Virus record (IMG/VR): IMGVR_UViG_3300020470_002359
Location: 1 to 21,321 of that record
DNA: 21,321 nt
Direction: 5' to 3' (one strand)
Source of the DNA: a virus
Translations under genes and position numbers: made by a program
Shown here: in pieces, positions 133-13,379 of the stretch
Numbering within the stretch: the first letter of the stretch is position 1
How the letters are laid out: every line of letters begins with the position of its first letter
The notes under the pieces: model-generated
Seen by the model: only the letters and a program-made list of their open reading frames with translations
Databases searched by the model: none
Told to the model about the DNA's origin: nothing

Positions 133-190
133 ATAATACACGGTCAGCGAGCGAATAGGGTAAAAAGTGGACAGTTTGCCAACTGGTCAC
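133..190 (-). promoter_or_regulatory. Dyad-class promoter of the gene at 1-126
   Basis: The minus-strand -10 box TATTAT is at 133-138. A dyad containing CAGTTGGCAAACTG (24-bp site 167-190) lies 28 nt upstream of it. The 17-nt-spaced -35 position shows no TTGACA-like hexamer. The same arrangement recurs at six other places in the window. The dyad centre would be near -52, a position where an activator could act; that role is inferred. Confidence 0.65.
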
Positions 191-219
191 AAAAATTCCA
201 GCCGCTTCGCTTGGGCATG

Positions 220-244
220 AAAAAACCCCTTTCGGGGTTTGGGG
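220..244 (-). terminator. Intrinsic terminator after the gene at 250-570
   Basis: On the minus strand AAACCCC, a GAAA tetraloop and GGGGTTTTTT form a GC-rich hairpin followed by a T-run. It lies just past the stop of the gene at 250-570 and upstream of the next promoter. Confidence 0.9.
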
Positions 245-249
245 TTTGG

Positions 250-570
250 TCATCGGATGATTTTGAACCCGTCAAAGAACGGGGTGCTGAGGTCGTCCAC
301 ATACCATGTGAAATCCTTCTGAAAAATCCTGCTGTTTATGAAGCAGTCAAGCACGGCGTTCAACCTTGATTTGGTCGTGGGTGTGTCCCATCCGCATGAA
401 CTCAATGTGATGTCACCGTGTGGGTTGATCTGAGCAATGCGGTTGCCGTGTAATCTGACATCTGTGTAACCCTCTGAATCGACCTCGACTGAGGTGTTCG
501 ATTTTGACCAGTTCATGCGATTGCGAATTGCGTTCTGCATTTGCTGTTCGATTTTTCTCATGTGGGTCAT
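250..570 (-). CDS. Small conserved-looking phage protein, unknown function
   Basis: This is a 106-aa protein. The N-terminal third is helical and basic. It is followed by a segment with VRLHGNRIAQINPHG and CGWDTPTTKSRLNAVL, a pattern (HGxxIA...TPTT+xRLN) that I recall from small phage proteins of unknown role. The start at 570 is supported by GGAGGAG 10 nt upstream. It is monocistronic, with its own -10 box (588-593) and terminator (220-244). I cannot assign a function. Confidence 0.75.
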   Translation of the reverse strand: MTHMRKIEQQMQNAIRNRMNWSKSNTSVEVDSEGYTDVRLHGNRIAQINPHGDITLSSCGWDTPTTKSRLNAVLDCFINSRIFQKDFTWYVDDLSTPFFDGFKIIR

Positions 571-580
571 GTCTGATTTA

Positions 581-600
581 CTCCTCCATTATAATCATAA
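581..600 (-). promoter_or_regulatory. -10 box fused to ribosome binding site
   Basis: The minus strand reads TTATAATGGAGGAGTAAA: a perfect TATAAT (588-593) immediately followed by GGAGGAG. If transcription begins about 7 nt after the box, the Shine-Dalgarno sequence sits at the very 5' end of the mRNA. The same fusion precedes the gene at 700-1044. I found no dyad at the usual spacing here. Confidence 0.6.
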
Positions 601-664
601 ATCTGCCCCGTTTGAACATTCCCGTAACAATATGAAACAAAATTCCAGCCGCCTGGTTTTGACA

Positions 665-690
665 ATAAAAAAGACCCTTTCGGGTCTTAG
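665..690 (-). terminator. Intrinsic terminator after the gene at 700-1044
   Basis: Minus strand AAGACCC-GAAA-GGGTCTTTTTT: a 7-bp stem, GAAA loop and T-run, 10 nt past the stop codon. Confidence 0.9.
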
Positions 691-699
691 GGTCAGATT

Positions 700-1044
700 T
701 CAGACTGTCCACGCTTTGACTGTTTTGACTGCCTGTGCGTGATAGGGTTTGATGAATTCAAATCCTTTTCTGAAGTCCTTGCCTAGTTCTTGGATTTCGT
801 ACTGGTGGATTTGCCAACGGGTGCGAATGTCCTTGAGATAGCGTTCAACTGTAATGAGGTTACGAGTTGAAGGACGGGTGAACTCAGTTTTTTTCTGAGT
901 TACCTTGCCACCTTTGAATGTGGTGACTGTGACCTTGGAAACTTGAGGTTTCTTTGGTGTTGCCTTTCTTGCCCGTGTCTTGCGTGCTGGTTTCTTAGGT
1001 GCAGCGGCAGACTTGACTGGGGTTGAAGTGGCGGTGCTTGGCAT
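700..1044 (-). CDS. Basic protein with Lys/Ala/Pro-rich N-terminal tail
   Basis: This 114-aa protein has a histone-H1-like tail in residues 10-35 (PKKPARKTRARKATPKKP). A C-terminal half (about 55-114) follows that is likely folded, with aromatic and charged residues. The tail suggests nucleic-acid binding, for example to host or phage DNA; this is inference from composition only. The ATG at 1044 is 18 nt from GGAGGGG, an unusually long gap, so the true start may differ by a few codons. It forms a monocistronic unit with its own -10 box, dyad and terminator. Confidence 0.75.
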   Translation of the reverse strand: MPSTATSTPVKSAAAPKKPARKTRARKATPKKPQVSKVTVTTFKGGKVTQKKTEFTRPSTRNLITVERYLKDIRTRWQIHQYEIQELGKDFRKGFEFIKPYHAQAVKTVKAWTV

Positions 1045-1069
1045 AAATGCTTTGCGTGTTTACCCCTCC

Positions 1070-1148
1070 ATTATAAACCCTAAGGGGTTGACAAAATGCT
1101 GATTCGTTACACTATGCAACAAAAAAGTCCAGTTTGTCAACTGTCTAC
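1070..1148 (-). promoter_or_regulatory. Promoter with distant dyad, gene at 700-1044
   Basis: TATAAT (1070-1075) is directly followed by GGAGGGG. A clean dyad, CAGTTGACAAACTG, lies within the site at 1125-1148 but is 49 nt upstream of the -10 box instead of 28-29. The extra 21 nt is two helical turns, which would keep the dyad on the same DNA face. Confidence 0.5.
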
Positions 1149-1176
1149 GCAAGTCAGCCGCCTGGCGGCGAGACAG

Positions 1177-1202
1177 AAAAAAACGGGATTAAATCCCGTT
1201 TA
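1177..1202 (-). terminator. Intrinsic terminator overlapping the stop of the gene at 1189-1356
   Basis: Minus strand AAACGGGATTTAATCCCGTTTTTTT: a self-complementary stem with a T-run. The stop codon of the 55-aa gene lies inside the loop region, so the last three sense codons form the 5' arm. Confidence 0.9.
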
Positions 1203-1356
1203 GAAAATCGTGCATGTGATCCAAGTATTCTTCGTATGTCCCGTTGAACCAATCAGGGGCAACTCGCTTGGAATGCTTTTGGGCAGACTCTCGGATCTCC
1301 CTTTCAGAATATCCCTTATCCAAGAGACCTGAGTAGAATTCGCTGATCGTGCTCAT
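1189..1356 (-). CDS. Hypothetical 55-aa protein
   Basis: The protein starts MSTISEFYSGLLDKGYSERE and ends MHDFLNGI. It is charged and probably helical, and I recognise no domain. GGAGG sits 7 nt before the ATG. The start codon overlaps the stop of the upstream gene (ATGA), which indicates translational coupling with the 60-aa protein at 1353-1535. Its 3' end merges with a strong terminator. Confidence 0.8.
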   Translation of the reverse strand: MSTISEFYSGLLDKGYSEREIRESAQKHSKRVAPDWFNGTYEEYLDHMHDFLNGI

Positions 1357-1535
1357 GAGTTTTCCTCCGTGATGATTTTATGTTCTGCACAAAGGATTTT
1401 ATCCCAAAGCAGATCGAACAGAACGGGGTCGTTATGCTCCTCAAAATCGAATTGGGAACAAAAGTGTGCCATCTCTTCGAGCATGGCGTGCTCTTCAGAA
1501 TTGAGCACGAGAGAAAATTGGTCGGTGAATTTCAT
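1353..1535 (-). CDS. Small acidic protein, paralog of the gene at 1-126
   Basis: This 60-aa protein begins MKFTDQFSLVLNSEEHAMLE and contains DPVLFDLLWDKILC. A longer reading to 1655 would run through the promoter, so the ATG at 1535 is preferred. It lies 6 nt after TATTAT, exactly as in the gene at 1-126, which implies a leaderless mRNA. The LWDK segment and preceding helix match the 1-126 and 8349-8495 proteins. It is the first gene of a two-gene unit with 1189-1356. Confidence 0.75.
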   Translation of the reverse strand: MKFTDQFSLVLNSEEHAMLEEMAHFCSQFDFEEHNDPVLFDLLWDKILCAEHKIITEENS

Positions 1536-1541
1536 ATTCTT

Positions 1542-1599
1542 ATAATACACGAAAATGCCCACCATTGGCAAAATAGTGGACACTTTGAGAATTGGCACG
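1542..1599 (-). promoter_or_regulatory. Dyad-class promoter of the 1189-1535 unit
   Basis: The -10 box TATTAT is at 1542-1547 and the dyad (CCAATTCTCAAAGTGTCCAC, within 1576-1599) is 28 nt upstream. The -10 box plus the next 9 nt are identical to the promoter at 133-138. Confidence 0.65.
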
Positions 1600-1657
1600 A
1601 AGCGAAGCGGCTGACAAAAAATCCAGCTGACCGTGTGCGATTTGTAAACTGTCACAA

Positions 1658-1678
1658 GGGATGCCCCAAGGACATCCC
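1658..1678 (-). terminator. Possible hairpin terminator downstream of 1719-1892
   Basis: GGGATG...CATCCC on the minus strand gives a 6-bp stem with a 9-nt loop and only a weak T-rich tail. It lies about 40 nt past the stop of the 57-aa gene. Confidence 0.35.
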
Positions 1679-1696
1679 AATTGAATTAGACTGATC

Positions 1697-1718
1697 TTTT
1701 CCACAGGGTTGTGGAAAA
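1697..1718 (-). other. Perfect inverted pair of TTTTCCACA boxes
   Basis: TTTTCCACA (1697-1705) and its reverse complement (1710-1718) flank a 4-nt spacer just after the stop of the 57-aa gene. TTTTCCACA is the DnaA-box form I recall for cyanobacterial origins. As RNA, the pair would also fold into a 9-bp hairpin. It has no T-tract, so it is a poor classic terminator. Confidence 0.5.
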
Positions 1719-1892
1719 CTATTCCATCTGTTCCAAGACCTCGTGGTCTCTCTGCTCCAACTCCTGATAGTCAGAGTCACCACTTAGATAGTCAAATGCC
1801 TCTGCCTTAGAGTAAGCATCTTCTAAATTGTCTGCTTCTACTTCAACCTTATAATAGGAAGTAGATTTAGTTAAGAAAGAAAAAGTTGACAT
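1719..1892 (-). CDS. Hypothetical acidic 57-aa protein
   Basis: The protein reads from MSTFSFLTKSTSYYKVEVEA to EVLEQME. The segment YYKVEVEADNLEDAYSKAEAF followed by DYQELEQRD suggests one beta strand and a helix, a layout common in tiny phage proteins. No Shine-Dalgarno sequence is visible; the upstream stretch is A/T-rich (1893-1917). The function is unknown. Confidence 0.65.
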   Translation of the reverse strand: MSTFSFLTKSTSYYKVEVEADNLEDAYSKAEAFDYLSGDSDYQELEQRDHEVLEQME

Positions 1893-1927
1893 TTAATAAA
1901 AAAGTAAAAAAGTGAGTTTTCCGACTT

Positions 1928-2245
1928 TTAGGATTTTACAGGAAACGATAAACTCTCGCCTTCTGCCAATCCATAAGTTGTCACATTACTGTCTTTTGGA
2001 CTTTCACCATAAACTGTGATGTGCTTGGCATTGTCTAAGAGTTCATCGAATAGGTTATCCTCAGGACATCCTGAGTTTTCCATCTCAATGATGTGGTCTC
2101 TTAGTTCGGTCTTGCCCATTCTACCATAGTAGTCAGTTAGTGAATCGTACACATACTGCTCCATGTCTTTGTAGTCCATGCGATCTAGGACGATCTCAGC
2201 ATACTGTTCAACTATGTAATCCAGTTGTGCTGCGTTAATGGTCAT
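1928..2245 (-). CDS. Hypothetical protein, cyanophage type
   Basis: This is a 105-aa protein from MTINAAQLDYIVEQYAEIVL. An N-terminal helical part (LDYIVEQYAEIVLDRMDYKDMEQYVYDSL) is followed by a short acidic region. I recall similar small proteins from cyanophages but know no function. An in-frame ATG at 2269 would add MDLIPFLF and falls at the predicted transcription start; a start at 2245 or 2269 is equally possible from sequence. The gene is driven by the promoter at 2275-2334. Confidence 0.7.
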   Translation of the reverse strand: MTINAAQLDYIVEQYAEIVLDRMDYKDMEQYVYDSLTDYYGRMGKTELRDHIIEMENSGCPEDNLFDELLDNAKHITVYGESPKDSNVTTYGLAEGESLSFPVKS

Positions 2246-2274
2246 AAAAAGAAAGGGGATTAAGTCCATGTATC

Positions 2275-2334
2275 TATAATGCCATAAAAAACTGCCCACT
2301 AGGTGAAATAGTGGACAGTTTGTGAACTGGTTGG
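2275..2334 (-). promoter_or_regulatory. Dyad-class promoter of the gene at 1928-2245
   Basis: CATTAT/ATTATA (2275-2281) with a dyad containing CAGTTCACAAACTG (2311-2334) at 29 nt. AGATACATG follows the -10 box, which parallels AAGTACATG at the other promoters. Confidence 0.6.
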
Positions 2335-2358
2335 CGTTTGGTCTACATGATCATGATA

Positions 2359-2517
2359 TCATGTATCATAGAAATCCTCCTGGTAGGTTTGCTTTTTGAA
2401 TTTGGTTACCTTTTTCTTGTGAGACCTTCGGACTCCCTTGATATTGTAACCATAATCATTAAACTCCTCCTCTAATTGTTTAGTTTTAGGGTTGCCAGGA
2501 CGGTATTTCTTCGCCAT
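2359..2517 (-). CDS. Hypothetical basic 52-aa protein
   Basis: MAKKYRPGNPKTKQLEEEFN at the start, then a Lys/Arg-rich middle (RRSHKKKVTKFKK) and an acidic C-terminus (YQEDFYDT). It may bind nucleic acid on the basis of charge alone. The gene stands alone between 2551-2841 and 1928-2245. A late-type promoter motif lies 35 nt upstream (2552-2559). No good Shine-Dalgarno sequence is seen. Confidence 0.65.
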   Translation of the reverse strand: MAKKYRPGNPKTKQLEEEFNDYGYNIKGVRRSHKKKVTKFKKQTYQEDFYDT

Positions 2518-2550
2518 AGTGATAGTTAGTAATTAACTAGTAAACTTCAA

Positions 2551-2841
2551 CTATTTATTTTCAACTAGTACACCATCTCTTACTTGACGGTGTATGAAAC
2601 TACCAATAGATTGCCTCTGATTGTTAGTTCCTTCATCTAATTCATGTGATAATAGTACTTCACATAGATTATTATTGAATTCTACTAATTCAGGGCAATT
2701 AAATGCATATTCTTTCTCAAAATTAGAAGAATATGTAATAAATACCTGATTTTCCGCGATTCTAATAGAATCTATGGCAGATGAGTCTAAATCTGTGTAA
2801 TTTGCTTCGATTTTCACTGGGTTTTCCACAAATAGGGTCAT
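2551..2841 (-). CDS. Hypothetical 96-aa protein
   Basis: The N-terminal half reads IDSIRIAENQVFITYSS and then KEYAFN, a pair of strands like the small KTSC-type beta domains of phages. The resemblance is weak and I do not claim the family. The C-terminus is acidic then basic. AAGGA lies 6 nt upstream of the ATG. The gene is preceded by a leader of about 190 nt starting from the promoter at 3034-3092. Confidence 0.65.
   Translation of the reverse strand: MTLFVENPVKIEANYTDLDSSAIDSIRIAENQVFITYSSNFEKEYAFNCPELVEFNNNLCEVLLSHELDEGTNNQRQSIGSFIHRQVRDGVLVENK
2552..2559 (-). promoter_or_regulatory. Possible T4-type late promoter
   Basis: Minus strand AATAAATA fits the NATAAATA late-promoter form of T4-like phages. 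It overlaps the stop codon of the gene at 2551-2841 and is 35 nt before the 52-aa gene. An 8-bp motif can occur by chance in A/T-rich DNA. Confidence 0.4.
2822..2830 (+). other. DnaA-box-like TTTTCCACA
   Basis: An exact TTTTCCACA within the start region of the gene at 2551-2841, where it encodes part of FVENP. It is part of the cluster at 1697-3684. Confidence 0.35.
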
Positions 2842-3033
2842 TTTAAGTCCTTATAAAGTTAAATAGACGGATTTGAACTCATACAAAAACCTCAAAAACT
2901 TAAAAAGTCAGTTTTTTAACTTTCTTACTTTTATAAGAAACTTAAAAAGTCATTTTTTTGCTTTTTGTGCTTTTCTGAAAGTCTCAGAAAGTCAAAATCG
3001 CAGTTTTTCGAGTCTTTTGCTGTTCATGAACTT
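2842..3033 (-). promoter_or_regulatory. A/T-rich structured leader with direct repeats
   Basis: This is the predicted 5' leader of the gene at 2551-2841. It holds a near-exact direct repeat (AAACTTAAAAAGTCA followed by a T-run; about 2895-2917 and 2938-2959). It also has a hairpin with arms 2918-2927/2934-2943 (9 of 10 pairs) and a perfect 7-bp hairpin TTTCTGA/TCAGAAA (2972-2978/2984-2990). A short ORF, MNSKRLEKLRF, starts at the predicted transcription start. Base composition alone favours some structure, so regulatory function is inferred. Confidence 0.4.
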
Positions 3034-3092
3034 ATTATAGGGCATCGCCAAGGGTTTTCGAGGGTTTTTGTGCCACTTTGAGAACTGTCACA
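3034..3092 (-). promoter_or_regulatory. Dyad-class promoter of the 2551-2841 leader
   Basis: TATAAT (3034-3039) with a dyad containing CAGTTCTCAAAGTGGCACA (3069-3092) at 29 nt. AAGTTCATG follows the -10 box. Confidence 0.65.
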
Positions 3093-3276
3093 CACCTGCT
3101 TGACTTTCGATCCACTGCGGCCTAAGACAACAAGAGGAGAGCACAATAGAACACACATACTATATTTTTTAATATATTTCAAAAGATTTCCACAGGACCT
3201 CGAAATTCTGTGGAAAACTCAGTCTCTCACTGGTGCGGAAGGTTACTCAAGGATAGTATCCTGATAACAATTCTCA
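3093..3276. other. Non-coding stretch between promoter and the gene at 3277
   Basis: I find no convincing gene here. It contains an A/T-rich patch (about 3160-3180), the inverted DnaA-like pair at 3186-3217 and a small palindrome AGGATAGTATCCT near 3252-3264. These may act as transcript-end hairpins for the upstream oxygenase gene. Confidence 0.4.
3186..3217. other. Inverted pair of TTTCCACA-type boxes
   Basis: ATTTCCACA (3186-3194) and TGTGGAAAA (3209-3217) form a stem around a 14-nt spacer, next to an A/T-rich tract. This is similar to the pair at 1697-1718. They could be DnaA-type sites or an RNA hairpin after the gene at 3277-3891. Confidence 0.4.
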
Positions 3277-3891
3277 TTAACGAGAGACATCAGTGTTCAC
3301 CCACACATTACCACTTACTGATACCCTTTCTTCCTTACAATTATAGTATGGATACACTGCATGTAACAACTTACTTGGGAAGAATAACATCTTACCTTCA
3401 TCCTTTGGTGTTAACATGTACCTATTCATACATGTCTCTCCTAGTATGTTCAAGTATTGGAATTCAAAGCAACTGTTTAACTTAGTGTTAGCAGTATTAT
3501 CTTTGTTCTGTTCCTTGTAGTCTGTTGGTATCTTTAACCATATAACAAATGAAAATGCACCACCATGATTATGTGTTGGTTGATATTCATGTTGATATTG
3601 GTAGTTAACCCAGAAGTCTTTAAGCATATAAGGATGCTCTTTGTATATGTTCTGGTGTTTAACTGTGGAAAATGCTGTGGAAAACTCTCTAATCAATGGG
3701 TTGATAGTATTAAACAAGAATAGGTCGTCTATGTCCTTTATGTTAATACTCTTATCTACATGCCCAATGAGTTGTGACTTAGCATCTGTTGTTTGTCCTT
3801 GTTCAATACACTTGTTAATATGATTTAACTCGTGTTCATTTAATTGGTGTTCTAACCAACCAAAATTATCAGGATGAACCACTCTTACCAT
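3277..3891 (-). CDS. Putative 2OG-Fe(II) oxygenase (PF13759-like)
   Basis: This 204-aa protein shows the small phage-type 2-oxoglutarate/Fe(II) oxygenase layout. FWVNYQY is followed by an H-x-H pair (His107, His109 in PTHNHGG), a FSFVIWLKIP strand, FPSKLLHAVYPY with the distal His177, and EERVSVSGNVW, where Arg189 would bind 2-oxoglutarate. The substrate is unknown; such proteins in phages are thought to hydroxylate proteins or other phage/host targets. It is the last gene of the unit starting at 4941. There is no clear Shine-Dalgarno sequence before ATG 3891. Confidence 0.75.
   Translation of the reverse strand: MVRVVHPDNFGWLEHQLNEHELNHINKCIEQGQTTDAKSQLIGHVDKSINIKDIDDLFLFNTINPLIREFSTAFSTVKHQNIYKEHPYMLKDFWVNYQYQHEYQPTHNHGGAFSFVIWLKIPTDYKEQNKDNTANTKLNSCFEFQYLNILGETCMNRYMLTPKDEGKMLFFPSKLLHAVYPYYNCKEERVSVSGNVWVNTDVSR
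3664..3684 (-). other. Two direct TTTTCCACA boxes inside a gene
   Basis: Minus-strand TTTTCCACA occurs at 3664-3672 and 3676-3684 with 12-bp periodicity. They encode FSTAFSTV in the oxygenase. They match the DnaA-like boxes of the nearby intergenic DNA; coding repetition is an alternative explanation. Confidence 0.35.
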
Positions 3892-3994
3892 TTTGTAATC
3901 TCTTGGGTAATCTTGTACCTTTAACAGTCTTCAGATTATGTTTGATTTGTTTAAGTTTCTTGAGATGCTCTTTGATCTCTTTCTTTGATATCAT
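3869..3994 (-). CDS. Possible small basic ORF bridging two genes
   Basis: A 41-aa frame, MISKKEIKEHLKKLKQIKHN through KSGSS, fills the 59-nt gap between two genes and overlaps both. It is Lys-rich with a helical heptad look, and its codon use is similar to its neighbours. No Shine-Dalgarno sequence is seen. It may be a real coupled gene or chance. Confidence 0.3.
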   Translation of the reverse strand: MISKKEIKEHLKKLKQIKHNLKTVKGTRLPKRLQNGKSGSS

Positions 3995-4379
3995 ATTCTA
4001 TGATGATCTTTTTGCTTGATCTACCCATAGAATTAAGTGTTTGGACTCTTTCGCATGTTCCATTTAATAGAGCAGCGATTTGAAGGCACTCAGAGACTAA
4101 CTCTCCTTCGTCCATGTGCATGAATTTATCTTCTTCAGTGGTCATAGCAGAGGGCATGGTAGCAACCATGTGATCAACACAATCTTTATAATCATTACCA
4201 TCAGTAATGCATTGTTCTACATCTTCTGGCGTGAACTCCTGTGAGATGTCACATTCATGATATTCTTCCACACAGTCTGTTTTACATTCTGTATCGTTGA
4301 TATCACACTCACTAGTACATTCAAGGAGTTGATCTGTGCAATCTTTTTCTTCATGCTGTACAATTGGGTCTTCCGACAT
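3951..4379 (-). CDS. Acidic cysteine-rich protein with CX3C pairs
   Basis: This 142-aa protein has about ten cysteines, mostly in the first 60 residues. ECTSEC and ECKTDC are twin CX3C motifs six residues apart, followed by further single cysteines (YHEC, EQC, KDC). CX3C pairs usually form helical hairpins held by disulfides or bind metal. The ATG at 4379 is chosen over a TTG at 4385. It overlaps the upstream gene by 29 nt. The plus-strand 55-aa protein at 5150-5317 has a similar DCLIEC segment. The function is unknown. Confidence 0.7.
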   Translation of the reverse strand: MSEDPIVQHEEKDCTDQLLECTSECDINDTECKTDCVEEYHECDISQEFTPEDVEQCITDGNDYKDCVDHMVATMPSAMTTEEDKFMHMDEGELVSECLQIAALLNGTCERVQTLNSMGRSSKKIIIEYDIKERDQRASQET

Positions 4380-4638
4380 AATCAAATGTAATTACTACTT
4401 GTTTTTTACCAATGCCATATTGATCTAGTGTGGTAGTATATGTTATCTCGCCACCTAATTCATTGGCAATCTTATTGAGTTCTTCTTCCTGCCTTGGATT
4501 GATTATTCCAGGTTGGTAGTCATTCTCAATCTCTTTCCGTAAATCGTTATGCAATCGCTCAACTGGTGTCCACTCGTATCCAAACTCATGCTTATCTTTT
4601 CCTTCAATTGATGTGGTTTCAGGGTATAGTCTGGTCAT
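4351..4638 (-). CDS. Hypothetical 95-aa protein
   Basis: It starts MTRLYPETTSIEGKDKHEFG, with an amphipathic middle (PVERLHNDLRKEIENDY) and a C-terminal strand pattern (GGEITYTTTLDQYGIGKKQV). GGAG lies 10 nt before the ATG. The start overlaps the upstream stop (ATGA), so it is coupled to the 51-aa membrane protein. No family is recognised. Confidence 0.75.
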   Translation of the reverse strand: MTRLYPETTSIEGKDKHEFGYEWTPVERLHNDLRKEIENDYQPGIINPRQEEELNKIANELGGEITYTTTLDQYGIGKKQVVITFDYVGRPNCTA

Positions 4639-4790
4639 AAGAGTATTGCTCCTATAATGAACCCTTTAGCGAATGATATGCATAGTACTTGATAATCAGT
4701 GAGGTTGAACTTGTCTTGAAACTTTTTAATCAGTTTCTTGTCCCACTCCACTACCTTATCAAATCCTTGCTTAATGTTAATGTTCCACAT
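4635..4790 (-). CDS. Small membrane-associated protein, 51 aa
   Basis: A basic amphipathic N-terminal part (KVVEWDKKLIKKFQDKF) is followed by a hydrophobic C-terminal segment (VLCISFAKGFIIGAILL, about residues 35-51) that could span or insert in a membrane. It is the second gene of the unit starting at 4941, with 4 nt between stop and next start codons, and it overlaps the next gene by 4 nt. Similar tiny tail-anchored proteins are common in cyanophages. The role is unknown. Confidence 0.7.
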   Translation of the reverse strand: MWNINIKQGFDKVVEWDKKLIKKFQDKFNLTDYQVLCISFAKGFIIGAILL

Positions 4791-4794
4791 ACAC

Positions 4795-4941
4795 TTAAAT
4801 CTGGTGTGTATTATTTAGTTCCCTCTCAGAAGCGATGTCATCAGTGTCAATCTCCACAATACTATACTTATCATCACGATATGGATTGTATGCAAAGAAC
4901 TTGAGTATCTCTTCATACATTTCAGGTGGATATGTATTCAT
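4795..4941 (-). CDS. Hypothetical 48-aa acidic protein
   Basis: It begins MNTYPPEMYEEILKFFAYNP and ends SERELNNTHQI. GGAGGCGAGG lies upstream but is separated from the ATG by an A+T run (eight T), giving a spacing of about 12 nt. It is the first gene after the sigma70-like promoter at 4977-5005. No family is recognised. Confidence 0.7.
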   Translation of the reverse strand: MNTYPPEMYEEILKFFAYNPYRDDKYSIVEIDTDDIASERELNNTHQI

Positions 4942-4976
4942 AAAAAAAATCGCCTCGCCTCCGAGAGTATGTCAAT

Positions 4977-5005
4977 ATTATAGCATACTTGGGAGATTAG
5001 GTCAA
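4977..5005 (-). promoter_or_regulatory. Sigma70-like promoter with extended -10
   Basis: TTGACC (5000-5005), 17 nt, then TATAAT (4977-4982) preceded by TATGC. Spacing and hexamers fit host housekeeping sigma. The same AGTATGC-TATAAT block occurs at 16353-16381. No dyad of the other class is present. Confidence 0.75.
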
Positions 5006-5065
5006 TATGAGTATTATTGCGTAGATAAGAACTGTTAAAATGTATGTCAAATACTAGCGTTTGCA

Positions 5066-5073
5066 CATAAATA
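5066..5073 (+). promoter_or_regulatory. T4-type late promoter on the plus strand
   Basis: CATAAATA fits the NATAAATA late-promoter form. It is 76 nt upstream of the only plus-strand gene. A TAGAAT box nearby (about 5079-5084) is a weaker alternative -10. Confidence 0.5.
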
Positions 5074-5149
5074 GTGGTAGAATTAAGGATAACAAGATGA
5101 AGTAAAACTTCCTTCATTATGAGTCTAACAATTCAAAGAGGTCACAAGT

Positions 5150-5317
5150 ATGTCGCACAATCTTCTAAGCAAGAATCAACTAGCAGAATGGAATCATTTT
5201 GAGACAAGTACAACGAGCAGTAATGCCAACCTAGAAAAGATCAATGATTACTACGACTGCCTGATTGAGTGCGAAACAGACCACACAGACAAACGAATAT
5301 GTAACCTAATACTATGA
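5150..5317 (+). CDS. Lone plus-strand 55-aa protein with CX3C motif
   Basis: It starts MSHNLLSKNQLAEWNHFETS, with a polar Ser/Thr stretch and then a C-terminal part with DYYDCLIECETDHTD and a further Cys (RIC). The CLIEC spacing (CX3C) resembles the Cys-rich protein at 3951-4379. AGAGGT lies 7 nt upstream of the ATG. The unit has its own late-type promoter and a strong terminator and runs against the surrounding minus-strand operons. An overlapping alternative ATG at 5119 gives a 27-aa frame without as good a ribosome site. Confidence 0.7.
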   Translation: MSHNLLSKNQLAEWNHFETSTTSSNANLEKINDYYDCLIECETDHTDKRICNLIL

Positions 5318-5338
5318 ATCCAAAATCATAAGTGTAAC

Positions 5339-5365: not shown

Positions 5366-5368
5366 ATG

Positions 5369-5898: not shown

Positions 5899-5899
5899 C

Positions 5900-6589: not shown

Positions 6590-6910
6590 TTATCTCATGT
6601 AGAGATAACCACCTGCCCAGTCACAGTTAGCGATACAAGCAGCATAACTTGCATCATCTAATAAATTATATCTTACTCCCTTCGCTGGTCCCCTCCAAGA
6701 TGCTGGTTTGAATACATCACCAGTCTTACGATCAATGAATGCATGTACAGACTCTTGGTTGTTGATCATGTTGATCTTAATGTACTTACGACCCTCTTTG
6801 ATGTCGAATACAGTATCACCATAACCATTACGGTCATAGTTTGCTTGTAGTGCCTGACCGAGTTTGTGTGCTCTTTCATACACTGTGTCAACGAAAAGTG
6901 CCTTGGACAT
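6590..6910 (-). CDS. Conserved-looking cyanophage protein, 106 aa
   Basis: MSKALFVDTVYERAHKLGQA is followed by GDTVFDIKEGRKYIKI, VHAFIDRKTGDVFKPASW and RGPAKGVRYNLLDD. I recall this compact alpha/beta protein from many T4-like cyanophages but know no function. The start at 6910 (MSKALF) is preferred over an upstream MIQ start. It is the first gene after the dyad-class promoter at 6937-6995, with a leader of about 20 nt. Confidence 0.75.
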   Translation of the reverse strand: MSKALFVDTVYERAHKLGQALQANYDRNGYGDTVFDIKEGRKYIKINMINNQESVHAFIDRKTGDVFKPASWRGPAKGVRYNLLDDASYAACIANCDWAGGYLYMR

Positions 6911-6936
6911 TTGGATCATTTGTTTGTTATGTACTT

Positions 6937-6995
6937 ATTATAGTACATCATGACGGTGTGTCTCTCGTGATTGTGACACTTCTTCAACTGGCTCC
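6937..6995 (-). promoter_or_regulatory. Dyad-class promoter embedded in the 6938-7300 gene end
   Basis: TATAAT (6937-6942) followed by AAGTACAT. The dyad site (6972-6995; CCAGTTGAAGAAGTGTCACA) is 29 nt upstream and encodes PVEEVSQ of the upstream gene. The stop codon TAA of that gene lies inside the -10 box. Confidence 0.55.
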
Positions 6996-7582: not shown

Positions 7583-7584
7583 TG

Positions 7585-8057: not shown

Positions 8058-8215
8058 TAAACCAACCTCCATTCATACTTATCCACTGATTCTTCACAGT
8101 GAACACATGTTAATGCTGACCATGCGAAGTGATAAACTTTGGATGGTTGGTTGCAACAAGGGCATTCAATGATTTTACCATTTGATGTGCTCCTTGTGTT
8201 CTTGTTTACATTCAT
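8057..8215 (-). CDS. Small zinc-ribbon-like protein, 52 aa
   Basis: MNVNKNTRSTSNGKIIECPC is followed by CNQPSKVYHFAWSALTCVHC: a CPCC pair and a CVHC pair 16 residues apart, a classic four-cysteine zinc knuckle/ribbon. A C-terminal segment DKYEWRLV ends the chain. Such miniature zinc ribbons often bind nucleic acid or a polymerase. The ATG at 8215 lacks a good Shine-Dalgarno sequence. The gene follows a structured leader and is first in its operon. Confidence 0.7.
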   Translation of the reverse strand: MNVNKNTRSTSNGKIIECPCCNQPSKVYHFAWSALTCVHCEESVDKYEWRLV

Positions 8216-8334
8216 TAGAACTTTAGAGCAAAGGGCGAGAGAAACGAAATCAGGGGTCAGTGCATTACTCTTTCGATCATGTGTCTGCTTCAGAGTCAGA
8301 CTAGAAAGAAACCTGTTTCGTTTCCCATGTACTT
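8216..8334 (-). promoter_or_regulatory. Structured 5' leader RNA
   Basis: Starting about 4 nt from the predicted transcription start, GAAACGAAA/TTTCGTTTC (8241-8249 with 8316-8324, 9 bp) continues past a one-base bulge into CAGG/CCTG (8251-8254 with 8312-8315). Inside is a hairpin GTCTG/CAGAC (8283-8287 with 8297-8301). A long-range 13-bp closing stem is unlikely by chance. A short ORF, MGNETGFFLV, starts at the 5' end. A riboswitch or protein-binding leader is inferred; I know of no matching family. Confidence 0.55.
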
Positions 8335-8392
8335 AATATAGCAGACTATCAGGACTCTAGGGCATCTTGTAGACAGTTTGACAAGTGGTCCC
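8335..8392 (-). promoter_or_regulatory. Dyad-class promoter embedded in the 8349-8495 gene
   Basis: TATATT (8335-8340) followed by AAGTACATG; the dyad site (8369-8392; CCACTTGTCAAACTGTCTAC) is 28 nt upstream, inside the coding end of the 48-aa gene. Confidence 0.65.
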
Positions 8393-8495
8393 AAAGTTCT
8401 GTGTCGGTTTCATCATAGTGGCATAATGCACTTCTAATGAATTCTATTTGATCAGTGGTTAGTTCAACCTCCGTTGTAACTGCTTCTCTATTCAT
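8349..8495 (-). CDS. Small acidic protein, third member of LWD family
   Basis: MNREAVTTEVELTTDQIEFI is followed by DTELWDHLSNCLQDALES, 48 aa. The L-T-x-x-Q/E...LWDxLxxC pattern matches the proteins at 1-126 and 1353-1535. GAGG lies 5 nt before the ATG. It is the last gene of the ho1/pyrE array; its 3' coding part also contains the dyad of the next promoter. Confidence 0.65.
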   Translation of the reverse strand: MNREAVTTEVELTTDQIEFIRSALCHYDETDTELWDHLSNCLQDALES

Positions 8496-8513
8496 GTGAA
8501 CCTCGAAAATTTG

Positions 8514-9227
8514 TTAATTCATCCATGAACCTTGTGTTCCTGGAACTGGTTTTCCTGCATTAGGATCAGTAGGATATACTTGCAACTCACTATCAAATTC
8601 AGGGTATCGACACGCAATATTAAATGATATAGTAACACGCCTTTTTGCACATGGTTTAACATGATGCATGAGTGATGATGGAAATATACACACCATCCCT
8701 TCACCTATGTTATGTGAAGGATCTTCATAACCACCAGTGGTCATTGTATGAAATGTACTATCAATAGGATGTGTTGATGATAATACAGGAGAAACGAACT
8801 CTAATGTATTCTCTTCATCCATGTCTAGGAAGTACACTCCTGAATAGTTAGGATTTCCCTTAACTCCAGCACTGTGTGTATGCATATCAGCATAATCACC
8901 AGTATTATATACATTCCACCAACAACTAGTGACACCAGCATCATTAAATTTTCTGACACCAGCAAAGTCAACTACTTCCTTGAAAGGATCCCATACCATG
9001 TATTTGATATACTTGTCAAGTATAATCGCTGCTATGTCCTTATCTATACCAGTTCTATATGTGGTGATGACCTTACTCTTAGTAATTTCATCCCATTTAT
9101 GACTAAATGAGTCCTTATGTCGTTGTGCATAGTGTAGAATTCTAGGAAGTATTTCATCCTTGATTTCATCATGCTTCTCTACCTTACTATACGATACAAA
9201 GTTAGTAGGAAAGAATTTAATTGTCAC
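8514..9227 (-). CDS. Putative 2OG-Fe(II) oxygenase (PF13759-like)
   Basis: This 237-aa protein has the phage-type oxygenase core: WWNVYNTGDYADMHTHS (His116, His118), YSGVYFLD, then FPSSLMHHVKP (distal His188) and RRVTISFN (Arg196/197 for 2-oxoglutarate). An N-terminal helical region of about 90 residues precedes it. The start is GTG at 9227 with GGAGGA 8 nt upstream. It overlaps the upstream gene by 11 nt and lies in the same transcript as ho1 and pyrE. The substrate is unknown. Confidence 0.8.
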   Translation of the reverse strand: MTIKFFPTNFVSYSKVEKHDEIKDEILPRILHYAQRHKDSFSHKWDEITKSKVITTYRTGIDKDIAAIILDKYIKYMVWDPFKEVVDFAGVRKFNDAGVTSCWWNVYNTGDYADMHTHSAGVKGNPNYSGVYFLDMDEENTLEFVSPVLSSTHPIDSTFHTMTTGGYEDPSHNIGEGMVCIFPSSLMHHVKPCAKRRVTISFNIACRYPEFDSELQVYPTDPNAGKPVPGTQGSWMN

Positions 9228-9429
9228 TTGGTTGTTCCTCCATTACTTCAATTTCATCCCAATAACAACTAGGGCAAAGAAGATTGCATTGAGATACTCC
9301 ATGCAATTTATCGGGATCAGGCCATTCACGAGTGGTAATAGTAATATATTGTGAACCAATAAAATTCACAACACCACTATCATCTTTCCACCTGATTTTC
9401 ATCCCACGATAGAAATCAGTCTTCTTCAT
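9217..9429 (-). CDS. Hypothetical 70-aa beta-rich protein
   Basis: MKKTDFYRGMKIRWKDDSGV is followed by VNFIGSQYITITTREWP, then HGVSQCNLLCPSCYWDEIEV. The pattern looks like a small SH3-like barrel, and I recall relatives in cyanophages. The ATG at 9429 is preferred; a GTG at 9450 is deep in the upstream gene. It overlaps both neighbours. The function is unknown. Confidence 0.7.
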   Translation of the reverse strand: MKKTDFYRGMKIRWKDDSGVVNFIGSQYITITTREWPDPDKLHGVSQCNLLCPSCYWDEIEVMEEQPSDN

Positions 9430-9622
9430 CGTAAAACTCGAAGGGTTCACGGTTCTTATTTTCTTCCTTAGGTATCTTGAATAGATCCCTGAACTCCTTC
9501 ATTGAATCAAGTTGCCGCTGCAACCCATCAATCTGTGATTGTAGAATTTGTAAATTCCTATCAGTATTCTTCTGCAACATCAGAATATTCTGTATTGCTG
9601 ATTTAAATTCCTGCTCGTTCAT
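9416..9622 (-). CDS. Coiled-coil protein, 68 aa
   Basis: MNEQEFKSAIQNILMLQKNT then a heptad-like helix, NLQILQSQIDGLQRQLDSMK, and an acidic tail FEFYDEED. Hydrophobic residues spaced 3-4 apart (I, L, I, L, L, M) suggest a coiled coil that would let it dimerise. It overlaps the upstream gene by 20 nt and the downstream gene by 14 nt. Confidence 0.7.
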   Translation of the reverse strand: MNEQEFKSAIQNILMLQKNTDRNLQILQSQIDGLQRQLDSMKEFRDLFKIPKEENKNREPFEFYDEED

Positions 9623-9776
9623 CGTTAATATTTTGTAGTTGGCGTTCTAACTCATATTTGATTGTTGTTAGAGGTTGCATGAGATAGTTATCCCATTCAT
9701 TCTCAAATAAGAGATCCTCTAAGTGTGCAACATGTTCTAATGCGAACATTAATTTAGTCTTATTATTCATTCTCAT
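9603..9776 (-). CDS. Hypothetical helical protein, about 57 aa
   Basis: MRMNNKTKLMFALEHVAHLE is followed by DLLFENEWDNYLMQPLTTI and a basic helical C-terminus. The ATG at 9776 or the in-frame one at 9770 is equally likely; neither has a strong Shine-Dalgarno sequence. A longer reading to 9854 lies inside the upstream gene. It overlaps both neighbours and is probably coupled. Confidence 0.65.
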   Translation of the reverse strand: MRMNNKTKLMFALEHVAHLEDLLFENEWDNYLMQPLTTIKYELERQLQNINDERAGI

Positions 9777-9927
9777 CGAATTGCCCCAGTTTAGCGTCAG
9801 CAAGAGATGCAACCATAGTCCAAGCAATTTCACCTGATACCATGTTCTTATCACAGAAATACTCTACGGTATCCTCCATGACCTCCATCATTTCTATTAA
9901 TTGTTGTTGCCTTTCATCACTAATCAT
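9763..9927 (-). CDS. Hypothetical acidic helical protein, 54 aa
   Basis: MISDERQQQLIEMMEVMEDT is followed by VEYFCDKNMVSGEIAWTMVA and an acidic end. The ATG at 9927 is preferred over a TTG at 9969. It overlaps the upstream gene by 8 nt. The composition suggests a two-helix protein; the function is unknown. Confidence 0.65.
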   Translation of the reverse strand: MISDERQQQLIEMMEVMEDTVEYFCDKNMVSGEIAWTMVASLADAKLGQFDENE

Positions 9928-10318
9928 TTTTGATTCTGCGAGGTACTTTAATAGTCCATGCTGGTGCAACTAAATCCACCATTTCAAACTGTGCTTTTGC
10001 CTTCTCTCTTGCCTTTGCTGCCTTTTCTAATTTATTCAATTCATCTTCACGACCTGGTTCAGGTTGTATCTCACCGTAGTGAGGATCCCATATTTCAGGA
10101 TGCTCATGACAATCAAAGAACTCTAAAATAGAACTATCAACCATGTGATACAATGTATCCCAAGTCAATGTCCTTCTTAGTGTCTCTGCTATATATTCCG
10201 CTTGATTAACTGACATTTCTTGTTTAAGAAATTCACCTCTTGCCCATACTAATTCATTCAGATCAATTGTGATCTGTACATTCTTATGGACACCTGTATC
10301 ATCATATGGTTCAGGCAT
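9920..10318 (-). CDS. Hypothetical 132-aa protein following pyrE
   Basis: MPEPYDDTGVHKNVQITIDL is followed by a helical region (ARGEFLKQEMSVNQAEYIAE), a WDTLYHMVDSSILEFFDCHE segment and a long charged helix (KLEKAAKAREKAKAQFE). The ATG at 10318 overlaps the pyrE stop by 8 nt and has GAGG 6 nt upstream. A longer reading to 10447 would be inside pyrE and is rejected. The function is unknown. Confidence 0.75.
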   Translation of the reverse strand: MPEPYDDTGVHKNVQITIDLNELVWARGEFLKQEMSVNQAEYIAETLRRTLTWDTLYHMVDSSILEFFDCHEHPEIWDPHYGEIQPEPGREDELNKLEKAAKAREKAKAQFEMVDLVAPAWTIKVPRRIKND

Positions 10319-10859
10319 TGGCAACCTCGCTGAGTGTGAATAGTGATCTGAATTCAATATTATTATCATCCCATATCTTATGATCATCCATACGATCAAC
10401 GATAGCAACAACACGATTAACAACATAACCTGCATCCCGAAGAACATTTACTGCTACCATTGCACTGCCACCAGTTGTGGTAACATCCTCAAGTACAGTA
10501 ATAACAGATCCTTTAGGTGGTTTATTACCCTCAATGACCTCTTTAGTACCATATCCTTTTGGATTCTTTCGTATGATAAGAGCATCAATGTGTCTATCAC
10601 ATTTATAGTATGCTTTCTGTGCAATACCACATACTAATGGGTCTGCACCTAATGTTAATCCACCAACTGCAACAGCATTCTTCTCTACCTCTTCAATCAT
10701 AAGATGTGATAGTAATGCATTACCTTCACATGATAGTGTGACAGGTTTACAATTGACATAATGTTCTGACTCTTGACCAGATGATAGAGTAAACTGTCCA
10801 TGACGGTATGCTCTCTCTTTCAATAGTTTGAGTAGTGTGTCTCTATGTGTTGTTGTCAT
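10311..10859 (-). CDS. pyrE: Orotate phosphoribosyltransferase
   Basis: PyrE transfers a phosphoribosyl group from PRPP to orotate, giving orotidine 5'-monophosphate in pyrimidine synthesis (EC 2.4.2.10). The 182-aa length is slightly short of common bacterial forms. Residues 23-45 carry the FTLSSGQ-x-S-x-x-YVN start. Residues 97-106, RKNPKGYGTK, form the mobile catalytic loop with Arg/Lys residues, and 119-132, VITVLEDVTTTGGS, is the PRPP-binding motif. It overlaps ho1 by 4 nt (ATGA). The phage would gain pyrimidine nucleotides for DNA synthesis. Confidence 0.93.
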   Translation of the reverse strand: MTTTHRDTLLKLLKERAYRHGQFTLSSGQESEHYVNCKPVTLSCEGNALLSHLMIEEVEKNAVAVGGLTLGADPLVCGIAQKAYYKCDRHIDALIIRKNPKGYGTKEVIEGNKPPKGSVITVLEDVTTTGGSAMVAVNVLRDAGYVVNRVVAIVDRMDDHKIWDDNNIEFRSLFTLSEVANA

Positions 10860-11545
10860 TTAAGTCCAAGTTTCGATTTAACAAGTCCACAAAGGACTTT
10901 GATTAGGGATTTAGATGCACTACCTTGTAGTTCATCAAACATATACATGTTCAATCTAAATGCATAGTTTGCTTCTGCAATCATAGCATTCATCATAGAT
11001 TGATCTATGTCTAGTGAATCTAAGGTAGACCTATAGTTTGTCTTAAATTCTTTAGCATCAGATATACTATTAAATTCATAGAAATCTAAACCTTTACCTA
11101 ATGGTGGATTCAATGCTTTCTCAGCAATGCCCTTTAAGATCTGCCCACCAGAAAGATCACCCAAATATCTGGTATAGTGGTGAGCAACAAGTAACTCAGG
11201 ATTATCCTTAGCCACCTCACGGATTCGATATAAGTACTGTTCACATGCTTTACTAGGTTTAATTTGTTGTTCCCAATCAGGACCATAATAATATTCAAGA
11301 TCTGTTATTAAAGAATTAGTTCTTTCTAACTCTTTAAAATACATCTTACCAACTACAGGATGATCCTTCAAGTTTGATATCTCATACTCCATACATTTGT
11401 ATACGAAGTAGAAGTTCTTAATCAACTCACGATAATTCTCAGGATCTACTACACCTCTAAGAAAACCAGCAACAAACTTAGTGTTCTCTGCTGCTGAATG
11501 AGATACTTTAGTTCCTTCTTTAATTTGTTTAGCAAAATCAGTCAT
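10856..11545 (-). CDS. ho1: Heme oxygenase, cyanobacterial type
   Basis: Heme oxygenase cleaves heme to biliverdin IX-alpha, CO and iron, using reduced ferredoxin in cyanobacteria. Biliverdin feeds phycobilin synthesis. This 229-aa protein has the usual length. His16 (KVSHSAAEN) is the expected proximal heme ligand, and LGDLSGGQILKGIA (128-141) is the distal-helix signature. Cyanophage Ho1 proteins are known to be active and are often paired with bilin reductases; no reductase (pebS or pcyA) is in this window. It is coupled to pyrE (4-nt overlap) and to the upstream gene (1-nt overlap). Confidence 0.95.
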   Translation of the reverse strand: MTDFAKQIKEGTKVSHSAAENTKFVAGFLRGVVDPENYRELIKNFYFVYKCMEYEISNLKDHPVVGKMYFKELERTNSLITDLEYYYGPDWEQQIKPSKACEQYLYRIREVAKDNPELLVAHHYTRYLGDLSGGQILKGIAEKALNPPLGKGLDFYEFNSISDAKEFKTNYRSTLDSLDIDQSMMNAMIAEANYAFRLNMYMFDELQGSASKSLIKVLCGLVKSKLGLK

Positions 11546-11793
11546 TAGTACCTACTGGGAATATTATTATATGGAGATTCATCTCTTGGTTTAGGATTTG
11601 GCATATCCTTTGCTATTTCTATCATACGATCTCTTATCTCCATCAGTTCATGATAGCATTTCTGATTATGAGAGCAACCACGCAACTCATGGTCTGGTTT
11701 ATGCAATGATTCTAAGAACAATGTCTTAGCACGATCCCACTTCTCATAAGAGGAATCTAAATCTTCTATTGTTCTTTGATCTTTTGATGCCAT
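11545..11793 (-). CDS. Hypothetical 82-aa protein before ho1
   Basis: MASKDQRTIEDLDSSYEKWD is followed by FLESLHKPDHELRGCSHNQKC and YHELMEIRDRMIEIAKDMP. It is probably a helical hairpin with two Cys. The stop overlaps the ho1 start (TAATG), and the start is one base from the methyltransferase stop. It could be an accessory protein, but nothing in the sequence proves this. Confidence 0.7.
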   Translation of the reverse strand: MASKDQRTIEDLDSSYEKWDRAKTLFLESLHKPDHELRGCSHNQKCYHELMEIRDRMIEIAKDMPNPKPRDESPYNNIPSRY

Positions 11794-11794
11794 G

Positions 11795-12535
11795 CTAGGT
11801 AAAGGATAATATGCTGGAGTTTATACGATCTTTGGCAATTTTAGCATACTTCTCGTCAATTTCAAACCCCAACCACTTGCGGTTAAGAGATTGTGACACT
11901 AATGCTGTTGTACCACTTCCCATGAATGGATCAAGTATGATATCATTCTCTTCTGTCGCCAGTAAGATACAATTTCTTACTAACTGTTCAGGAAATGGTG
12001 CTGGATGCTTCTTCTGCCTTTCAGGTGGAATATTCCACACTTCACCTATGTATGATGAATCTAATGCATTACGAAATGTCTTAGGTTTATCTTTACATAA
12101 CCAATAAATGTGCTCAGTACATGGTACTAATACATCATTACGAATGTTAGGTGAGTTGCGTCTATCCCATATTATTAATTGATACAAGTTAGCATAACTA
12201 TGCTGAAGAAAATCAGTTGGAAGATATGCTCTATTCTTATATCGTCTTGGTTTATGATTAAAGAATATACTACCATCAGGTTTAATAACACGATGACATT
12301 CATTTAAAAATGCAACCATCCATGCTTGATAATCTTCCTCTGGCATGTCATCGCCATAAGAATTGTAATCAATATTAAATTTGCCCCAGATTTGATTACC
12401 TAGGGCAACTTTACCTAATAGACCTTTCTTATTGTATGGTGGTGATGTTACAATGCAATTAATAGAATTGTCATCTAACTCACTCATACCTTCAAGGCAA
12501 TCAATTACTGAAATAGATTCCGATGAATGTGCCAT
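11795..12535 (-). CDS. Beta-class DNA methyltransferase (N4-cytosine or N6-adenine)
   Basis: This 246-aa protein transfers methyl groups from S-adenosylmethionine to DNA bases. Motif IV, TSPPYN (30-35), comes before motif I, DPFMGSGTT (202-210): the beta-class order (N6_N4_Mtase). TSPPY, rather than DPPY, is more common in N4-cytosine enzymes, so m4C is favoured but not proven. HPAPFPEQLV (177-186) is also typical. It overlaps the upstream gene by 31 nt. That gene looks like a possible nuclease, so the two could be a restriction-modification pair. Self-protection or gene regulation is an alternative. Confidence 0.88.
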   Translation of the reverse strand: MAHSSESISVIDCLEGMSELDDNSINCIVTSPPYNKKGLLGKVALGNQIWGKFNIDYNSYGDDMPEEDYQAWMVAFLNECHRVIKPDGSIFFNHKPRRYKNRAYLPTDFLQHSYANLYQLIIWDRRNSPNIRNDVLVPCTEHIYWLCKDKPKTFRNALDSSYIGEVWNIPPERQKKHPAPFPEQLVRNCILLATEENDIILDPFMGSGTTALVSQSLNRKWLGFEIDEKYAKIAKDRINSSILSFT

Positions 12536-13128
12536 AGTACATTGTAACGGTTAGAAGTTTTCTTCTTGCCTTCACGCTGGAAGTGGAATAGTGTCTTACC
12601 ATTCAATTTTAAATGGATGCCACCATTCAAAAACTTCCACTCTGCATTTTTAATTCTATCAAGGATCTCCTCATATGTCAACTTGTATTCAACATCATTT
12701 TTTATATCATTATAAATGACATGTGTGATGTCAAACCCATTGCGTATAATTAGATCTACTACTTTTTCCTTGTTTTCATTAAGGAAATCTCTAAATGCAT
12801 CAGTATAATCTGTGTGTATCTGATCTACCTTAAATCTATCTGTACCATAGTTATCAATAGCAGGACTACCACAAAACAAACGCACAAAAATAGAAGCATT
12901 ACCATTAAGACCAAGTTGCTCAATGAAATGCTTCTGTGTTGTTAGATGTACCTGTGTGGATGAACCACTGGCATTTTTAATACTTACTTTGTCATCACCA
13001 TTAGCACCATCAACTTTGGTACGAGATCCACCAATCTGTTGCAGTCCATGTGCATCACAAATTGCTTTCTCTTTTATCTCAGAGTATTCCTCTCTGATCT
13101 TGTAACCATCTGCTGCTGATAGTGGCAT
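12505..13128 (-). CDS. Candidate restriction-type nuclease next to methyltransferase
   Basis: This 207-aa protein was not recognised with certainty. Residues 35-66 read GSRTKVDGANGDDKVSIKN and then SSTQVHLTTQKHF: a D-x(8)-S-x-K arrangement (Asp40, Lys51) like a PD-(D/E)XK core with a Ser in the E position. The C-terminal part (FHFQREGKKKTSNRYN) is basic. Position directly before a methyltransferase, with overlap, fits a type II restriction endonuclease. An alternative is a DNA-binding or anti-host protein. No Shine-Dalgarno sequence is seen; a structured leader (13151-13315) precedes it. Confidence 0.5.
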   Translation of the reverse strand: MPLSAADGYKIREEYSEIKEKAICDAHGLQQIGGSRTKVDGANGDDKVSIKNASGSSTQVHLTTQKHFIEQLGLNGNASIFVRLFCGSPAIDNYGTDRFKVDQIHTDYTDAFRDFLNENKEKVVDLIIRNGFDITHVIYNDIKNDVEYKLTYEEILDRIKNAEWKFLNGGIHLKLNGKTLFHFQREGKKKTSNRYNVLWHIHRNLFQ

Positions 13129-13150
13129 GATAATGAATAATAATATTGTT

Positions 13151-13315
13151 GGCAGTTTCCTATCGCCTCCAAGTCTGAAACTACCAAAGGGACTTGCAGC
13201 AGTTGAGAGAACGGGGCATCGACATAGGTTTCACCTATATGCCCAAATTTACCTACTGGGAATCGCTTACACCTGAACCCTCTTTACGAGGCAGTAGAAC
13301 CGTTATCCCTCAACT
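13151..13315 (-). ncRNA. Structured leader or ncRNA: three-way junction plus pseudoknot
   Basis: On the minus strand AGTTGAG-type arms pair at 13201-13207/13309-13315 and 13210-13214/13300-13304. Inside are a hairpin (13214-13219/13239-13244 and 13224-13229/13233-13238) and a stem (13253-13258/13292-13297) with its own hairpin (13279-13282/13288-13291). Downstream, CAAGTC/GACTTG (13191-13196/13170-13175) interlocks with GGTAGTTTC/GAAACTGCC (13177-13185/13151-13159) as an H-type pseudoknot. The -10 box predicts an RNA 5' end at about 13314, right at the outer stem. It matches no family I know; a riboswitch or regulatory RNA is inferred. Confidence 0.65.
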
Positions 13316-13320
13316 CTTAT

Positions 13321-13379
13321 ATTATACAGCAGGTGGCGGTGGTGTGTCAGTAGCTTGTGCCACTTCCTCAACTGGTTGC
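13321..13379 (-). promoter_or_regulatory. Dyad-class promoter of the nuclease-ho1-pyrE transcript
   Basis: TATAAT (13321-13326). The dyad site (13356-13379; CCAGTTGAGGAAGTGGCACA) is 29 nt upstream. A CTGACA -35 (13345-13350) at 18-nt spacing is also present, the best -35 in this class. The stop codon of the gene at 13322-13597 lies in the -10 box. Confidence 0.65.

Follow-up and report, generated by a model that had tools for sequence, protein, structure and literature searches.

Seven dyad promoters in a cyanophage fragment

A 21.3 kb virus record from IMG/VR (IMGVR_UViG_3300020470_002359; the window, by which we mean this whole stretch of DNA) was analyzed for a class of promoters in which an inverted repeat, the dyad, stands at a fixed distance upstream of a -10 box. 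Seven such promoters had been predicted on the minus strand, with 28 or 29 nt between dyad and -10; all seven pairs were found there, and the gap holds when measured from the CCAC/CACA end of the dyad (Table 1). The DNA methylase encoded in the window is 72-76% identical to those of the Synechococcus phages Sf-CH1b, S-CAM22 and S-RIM12, the last two of which are classed in Kyanoviridae. Judged by this protein, the window is a piece of a marine T4-like cyanophage genome; no named phage matched it in a megablast comparison.

A position model scoring left arm, right arm and -10/initiator jointly was trained on 103 sites from eight T4-like cyanophages (Syn9, Sf-CH1b, S-CAM22, S-RIM12, S-PM2, P-SSM2, P-SSM4 and S-CRM01) with the window excluded, although an earlier version used to seed the training had contained it. 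On the window the trained model returned exactly the seven promoters, at 25-44 bits; an eighth match was the dyad at 3069 read in reverse, where no usable -10 exists. When the dinucleotides of the window were shuffled 100 times, scores stayed below 25 bits (maximum 23.9).

Table 1 Dyads and -10 boxes of the seven promoters in the window. ORF, open reading frame.
Feature	Coordinates	Strand	Sequence	Score (bits)	Remarks
Dyad 1	167..190	-	GTGACCAGTT-GGCA-AACTGTCCAC	25.2	score includes its -10
Promoter 1 -10	133..138	-	TATTAT		predicted +1 at 126, the A of an ATG; frame runs past left edge
Dyad 2	1576..1599	-	CGTGCCAATT-CTCA-AAGTGTCCAC	31.7
Promoter 2 -10	1542..1547	-	TATTAT		+1 predicted at 1535, where a small ORF (1535 down to 1353) opens with the A of its ATG
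Dyad 3	2311..2334	-	CCAACCAGTT-CACA-AACTGTCCAC	25.3
Promoter 3 -10	2276..2281	-	CATTAT		upstream of ORF 1928-2299 (DUF7326)
Dyad 4	3069..3092	-	TGTGACAGTT-CTCA-AAGTGGCACA	43.9	top score in window
Promoter 4 -10	3034..3039	-	TATAAT		upstream of ORF 2551-2841 (phrog_4357)
Dyad 5	6972..6995	-	GGAGCCAGTT-GAAG-AAGTGTCACA	41.9
Promoter 5 -10	6937..6942	-	TATAAT		upstream of ORF 6590-6919 (DUF7717 / phrog_818)
Dyad 6	8369..8392	-	GGGACCACTT-GTCA-AACTGTCTAC	28.1
Promoter 6 -10	8335..8340	-	TATATT		TGC directly before (extended -10)
Dyad 7	13356..13379	-	GCAACCAGTT-GAGG-AAGTGGCACA	32.9
Promoter 7 -10	13321..13326	-	TATAAT

By eye, the proximal arm of dyad 3 also makes up the 5' side of the stem in a terminator-like hairpin within the spacer. 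A further perfect core dyad, CAGTTGACAAACTG, lies on the minus strand at 1130-1143, with TATAAT at about 1070-1075 before ORF 700-1044; the distance of about 54 nt between them equals the class gap plus two helical turns. In five of the seven promoters (126, 1535, 2269, 3027 and 8328) the predicted start A is also the A of an ATG. This ATG opens a real ORF in some of the window promoters, and leaderless early mRNAs are therefore possible; overall, the coincidence was seen at 38 of 350 sites.

Anatomy, spacing and distribution of the class

Anatomy statistics were collected over 398 unique sites. The full element is an inverted repeat of 24 bp built around 4 central nt, TGTGMCASTT-N3-RAASTGKCACA, to which a few phages add one extra central base. 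The core CAGTT-NNN-RAASTG with flanks close to CCAC, as originally described, is present but forms only part of this longer repeat (TGTGMCASTT-N4-AASTGKCACA). The dyad is followed after 27-29 nt by (TG)n-TATAAT, a short stretch, Y, A or G at the predicted +1 and T at +2, which places the dyad centre at -52.5 or -53.5, close to the predicted -52. The tail AAGTACATG, noted originally after the -10 together with close variants, is this initiator and not a fixed word. Nearly half of the sites (47%) carry TG upstream of the -10, either as TGn (32%) or directly adjacent (15%). That most promoters lack a -35 hexamer was borne out, but a TTGACA-like sequence with at most two mismatches is over-represented among all sites (119, compared with 44 expected), although still in a minority. 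At 350 of the 398 sites an ORF starts no more than 150 nt from the predicted +1, compared with 48% of random positions.

The spacing was examined in sequences retrieved without reference to the -10. IMG/VR contigs fetched by the dyad pattern only have 49 TATNAT boxes no more than 60 nt away, and 44 of these sit 33 or 34 nt past the end of the 14-nt core. In the held-out phages S-PM2, P-SSM2, P-SSM4 and S-CRM01, 50 of 211 dyads have TAWNNT at precisely 28 nt past the right arm, forming one sharp peak over other positions with about 2-3 each (about 2.5 expected). The spaced class occurs at 315 sites in IMG/VR and at none in reversed IMG/VR sequence. The outcome that would have refuted the original prediction, a lack of enrichment in relatives or in the remaining genome, did not come about.

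An inverted repeat with a loop of 3-4 nt could also be an RNA hairpin, either the terminator of the upstream gene or a processing site, that merely precedes the promoters, and a T-run is present in 85 of the 398 spacers. Where these T-runs were inspected, the terminator of the upstream gene is placed between the dyad and the -10; the spacer itself is hence not the signal. Compensatory pairing between the arms was looked for across all sites and not seen, and the RNA stem was rejected. At the variable G/C position, arm combinations that pair (112 + 28) are fewer than those that do not (141 + 57), an odds ratio of 0.39 (P = 0.0004), while pairing at other arm positions is near the value expected for independent arms. 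The arms thus vary independently or contrary to pairing, the sequence rather than the pairing is conserved, and the distance to the -10 is fixed, all of which makes an RNA hairpin hardly credible. Since the arms lack the pairing of an RNA stem, these statistics make the element a double-stranded DNA site for a protein that accepts either base at the variable position. Complementary combinations at the variable G/C positions of the arms are avoided, as would happen under selection against perfect palindromes.

The class was found in all eight T4-like training phages, mainly on the coding strand and clustered in blocks of small genes; in Syn9 it is densest in the small-gene region at 43-53 kb. 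Among IMG/VR loci with sites, 133 of 136 have at least two ORFs whose best matches are T4-like cyanophages. The class was sought and not found in HTVC008M (Kyanoviridae, infecting Pelagibacter), Ma-LMM01 (Microcystis) and P-SSP7 (T7-like). S-TIM5, isolated on Synechococcus WH8102 and classed outside Kyanoviridae, carries a variant with GGCCCA flanks at 163-171 kb (CASTT-N3-AASTGGCCCA, gap 29), with seven sites compared with none in the control.

Run against bacterial and archaeal genomes totalling 257 Gb, the composite pattern gave six exact matches. Two of these lie on one Prochlorococcus single-cell contig; in the part of it that was sampled, gp46, gp47, gp55 and uvsW were recognized by eye among the translations; this 189 kb contig, filed as Prochlorococcus AG-418-C09 (QCLS01000003.1), is by its gene content a captured T4-like cyanophage. 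Another, on a short marine contig, fits the class pattern in full. PAZU01000057.1, filed under a Euryarchaeota metagenome-assembled genome, has promoters of the cyanophage class too and was probably misbinned.

Early genes, a host counterpart and the candidate regulator

Three dyad-bearing IMG/VR contigs are related to the Microcystis siphophage Mic1, which itself carries 49 dyads, all within 56.8-72.2 kb, where its published early genes also lie. The Mic1 RNA-seq study (PMC11237433) places gp49 and gp69-gp73 in an immediate-early cluster and names gp52, gp59 and gp63 as early. The dyad stands 29 nt before the -10 at gp69, gp70, gp71 and gp73 and 28 nt before it at gp52; at gp72 and gp59 the distance is longer by one helical turn, at 38 nt, and TTGACA is present at gp59 but absent at gp72. 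A dyad with a -10 was sought at gp49 and gp63 and was absent. These data support a use of the dyad early in infection, the measured link to expression being the Mic1 gene list only, from a phage that is not T4-like.

Between 65.9 and 72.1 kb of Mic1, dyads form tandem arrays spaced 56-64 bp apart, often with two to five copies before one early gene, and the arrays include long stretches without genes. The palindromes of the three Mic1-like contigs, for example GTGGACACTTTCTAAACTGTCCAC, are near-perfect and have CATAAT at a gap of 22 or, alternatively, a gap of 33 with TTGACA, the two gaps lying eleven bp apart; the helical phase at these gaps differs from that of the T4-like class. Perfect palindromes and tandem arrays of the kind found in Mic1 resemble operators, and the dyad could be the site of a repressor, either a host silencer or a phage protein, acting on early promoters. 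We hold this to be distinctly improbable, as a fixed spacing to a -10 mostly without a -35 fits an activator, T4-like cyanophages are regarded as lytic, and the dyad-bearing genes of Mic1 include the first to peak after infection.

A search of 386 cyanobacterial genomes allowing one mismatch returned about 60 near-perfect dyads, compared with about 15 for the reversed pattern. At eight loci, several of which differ in their neighbouring genes, the Rfam Cyano-1 small RNA (sRNA) follows 39-41 nt downstream of the dyad, whose centre is at -50.5 to -52.5. Cyano-1 appears to be the Yfr2 family, since its 5' GTGTGTGAGGAG and its GTCGAAACAAGGAAAGACTCC loop correspond to Yfr2 probe sequences (PMC2662882). 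When Cyano-1 loci were picked independently of the dyad, 15 of 23 in a class-wide sample scored 12 bits or more, as 0.2% of background windows do, with nearly all centres at -48.5 to -52.5, and 10 of 28 in Cyanobiaceae scored at least 10 bits (background 1.2%). The distal half-site TGTGMCAGTT was present near -55 with at most two mismatches in 20 of 30 Cyanobiaceae loci, compared with 13% of background windows. A genome-wide scan for a picocyanobacterial regulon in 201 Cyanobiaceae genomes gave near-chance counts (at most three mismatches) and no -10 at the right spacing, in agreement with the report that CGRE1 occurs in the MED4 genome at yfr2 promoters only (PMC6778093).

Two other host contexts were seen. 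In several large cyanobacterial genomes a near-perfect dyad is conserved in the interval that separates a WD40-repeat gene from a YiaAB-type gene and may mark a second host target, and three plasmid-like cyanobacterial contigs of 7-9 kb carry AGTGCCAATTCNNAAASTGTCACA before an unannotated gene.

All cyanobacteria have the GntR-family regulator PMM1637; it binds those yfr2 promoters that carry CGRE1, and it mediates the induction of Yfr2 under high light and late nitrogen starvation (PMC6778093). One GntR protein was found in each of three picocyanobacterial genomes (mutual identity 71-79%); over its full length it is 44-50% identical to an orthologous protein from each of two cyanobacteria with larger genomes. 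A GntR protein was sought in 12 phage genomes (Syn9, Sf-CH1b, S-CAM22, S-RIM12, S-PM2, P-SSM2, P-SSM4, S-TIM5, S-CRM01, Ma-LMM01, HTVC008M and Mic1) and none was found; the phage of the window is represented by a fragment only. The cyanobacterial GntR regulator PlmA, the ortholog of PMM1637, is tied in the literature to the PII-PipX nitrogen complex.

The dyad sits at host yfr2 and in unrelated cyanophages, and those phages encode no GntR; a host regulator is therefore favoured, and the host GntR activator PMM1637 probably binds the dyad and drives the early promoters of T4-like cyanophages. The original prediction had left the source of the regulator open between phage and host: a regulator-binding dyad is supported, and the choice narrows to the host GntR, with a phage source disfavoured. 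A phage-encoded activator, injected with the virion or made very early, would bind the dyad in the manner of Ogr/Delta in P2 or Mor/C in Mu, whose promoters likewise have dyads just upstream and lack a -35. The composite pattern is nearly exclusive to phages, two of its six exact matches in 257 Gb being on the captured cyanophage contig, as such an activator would lead one to expect. We nevertheless consider it unlikely: the same dyad occurs in phages as unrelated as the T4-like group and Mic1, immediate-early genes of Mic1 bear it, and it has a host counterpart at yfr2. Nor did the core genes shared by all or nearly all T4-like cyanophages tested and missing from the three phages without the class yield a DNA-binding candidate; they encode an Sm-like protein, DUF3110 and DUF1825 proteins, a small unannotated protein and enzymes, with no recognizable helix-turn-helix among them, though a DNA-binding protein of another fold may be present. 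Some other host DNA-binding protein might instead occupy the dyad at yfr2 and at the phage promoters, as the identification of PMM1637 draws on the yfr2 literature and co-location. This seems quite unlikely, given that the protein with demonstrated binding to yfr2 promoters is PMM1637 (PMC6778093) and that regulators are few in picocyanobacteria.

Several points weigh against the host GntR. The strongest doubt comes from the real hosts of these phages, in which the proximal half-site at yfr2 is degenerate: Cyanobiaceae yfr2 copies have a degenerate proximal half or are everted, the best phage-model score at a picocyanobacterial yfr2 is 15 bits, and an exact half-site is found at only about one third of picocyanobacterial yfr2 loci. 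The proposed identity of the dyad with CGRE1 is drawn only from its position upstream of yfr2, and activation rather than repression is what we infer from the geometry. Moreover, Ma-LMM01 infects Microcystis, yet is without the element.

If the host GntR is the regulator, it would be present before infection and bind the phage dyad as a dimer. Abutting the -35 region, the bound dimer would contact the host sigma-A RNA polymerase and recruit it to phage promoters that have only a -10. Early transcription would then start once the DNA enters, with no phage protein needed, and would be tied to the nitrogen, carbon and light status of the host. A broader proposal, on which we are evenly divided, is that unrelated cyanophages, namely T4-like myoviruses infecting Synechococcus and Prochlorococcus, Mic1-like siphoviruses infecting Microcystis and, with its variant, S-TIM5, convergently placed early genes under one host GntR of the PII/PipX network by copying the Yfr2 promoter element; in the infected cell, yfr2 and the phage sites may also be rivals for the regulator.

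Cyanophages are a major cause of death among ocean phytoplankton. Since Alt, MotA and AsiA of T4 are missing from them, the activation of their first genes is poorly understood. A host activator responsive to nitrogen and light would, if confirmed, explain how naked phage DNA is read immediately and why infection follows the light and nutrient state of the host. The present analysis offers one protein and a 24-bp site, together with a sequence rule by which early promoters could be called in uncultured viral contigs, of which there are thousands.

Relation to known systems

Doron et al. are said to have described in 2016 a 'novel regulatory element' of early genes in the cyanophages Syn9 and P-TIM40. 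The phage group is the same and Syn9 carries the present class, which is very probably that element. CGRE1 at yfr2 was reportedly described by Lambrecht in 2018. A link between the phage element and the yfr2-GntR system is not made in PMC9692554 or PMC6778093; the 2016 and 2018 studies may make it. New here are the joint model, the held-out spacing tests and the rejection of an RNA stem, as well as the link to the Mic1 early region, the S-TIM5 variant and the geometric match to a host sRNA promoter.

Outside the picocyanobacteria, the CGRE1 promoter of yfr2 shares with the phage class the half-site TGTGMCASTT, the inverted repeat and the distance to the start. It differs in serving a host sRNA gene, usually in one to few copies that are half-degenerate in picocyanobacteria, whereas phages carry many near-consensus copies. 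The late promoters of P2 (Ogr/Delta) and the middle and late promoters of Mu (Mor/C) also have a dyad just upstream of a -35-less promoter, bound by a dimeric activator; there, however, the activator is phage-encoded, the genes are late or middle, and the sequence is another. The middle promoters of T4 (MotA/AsiA) likewise retain the -10 and have an upstream box in place of the -35, and motA and asiA are missing from cyanomyoviruses (PMC2984593). The distinction from T4 middle promoters drawn in the original prediction is upheld: T4 uses a single MotA box near -30, whereas the present class has a dyad centred at about -53 and a spacer that is not conserved.

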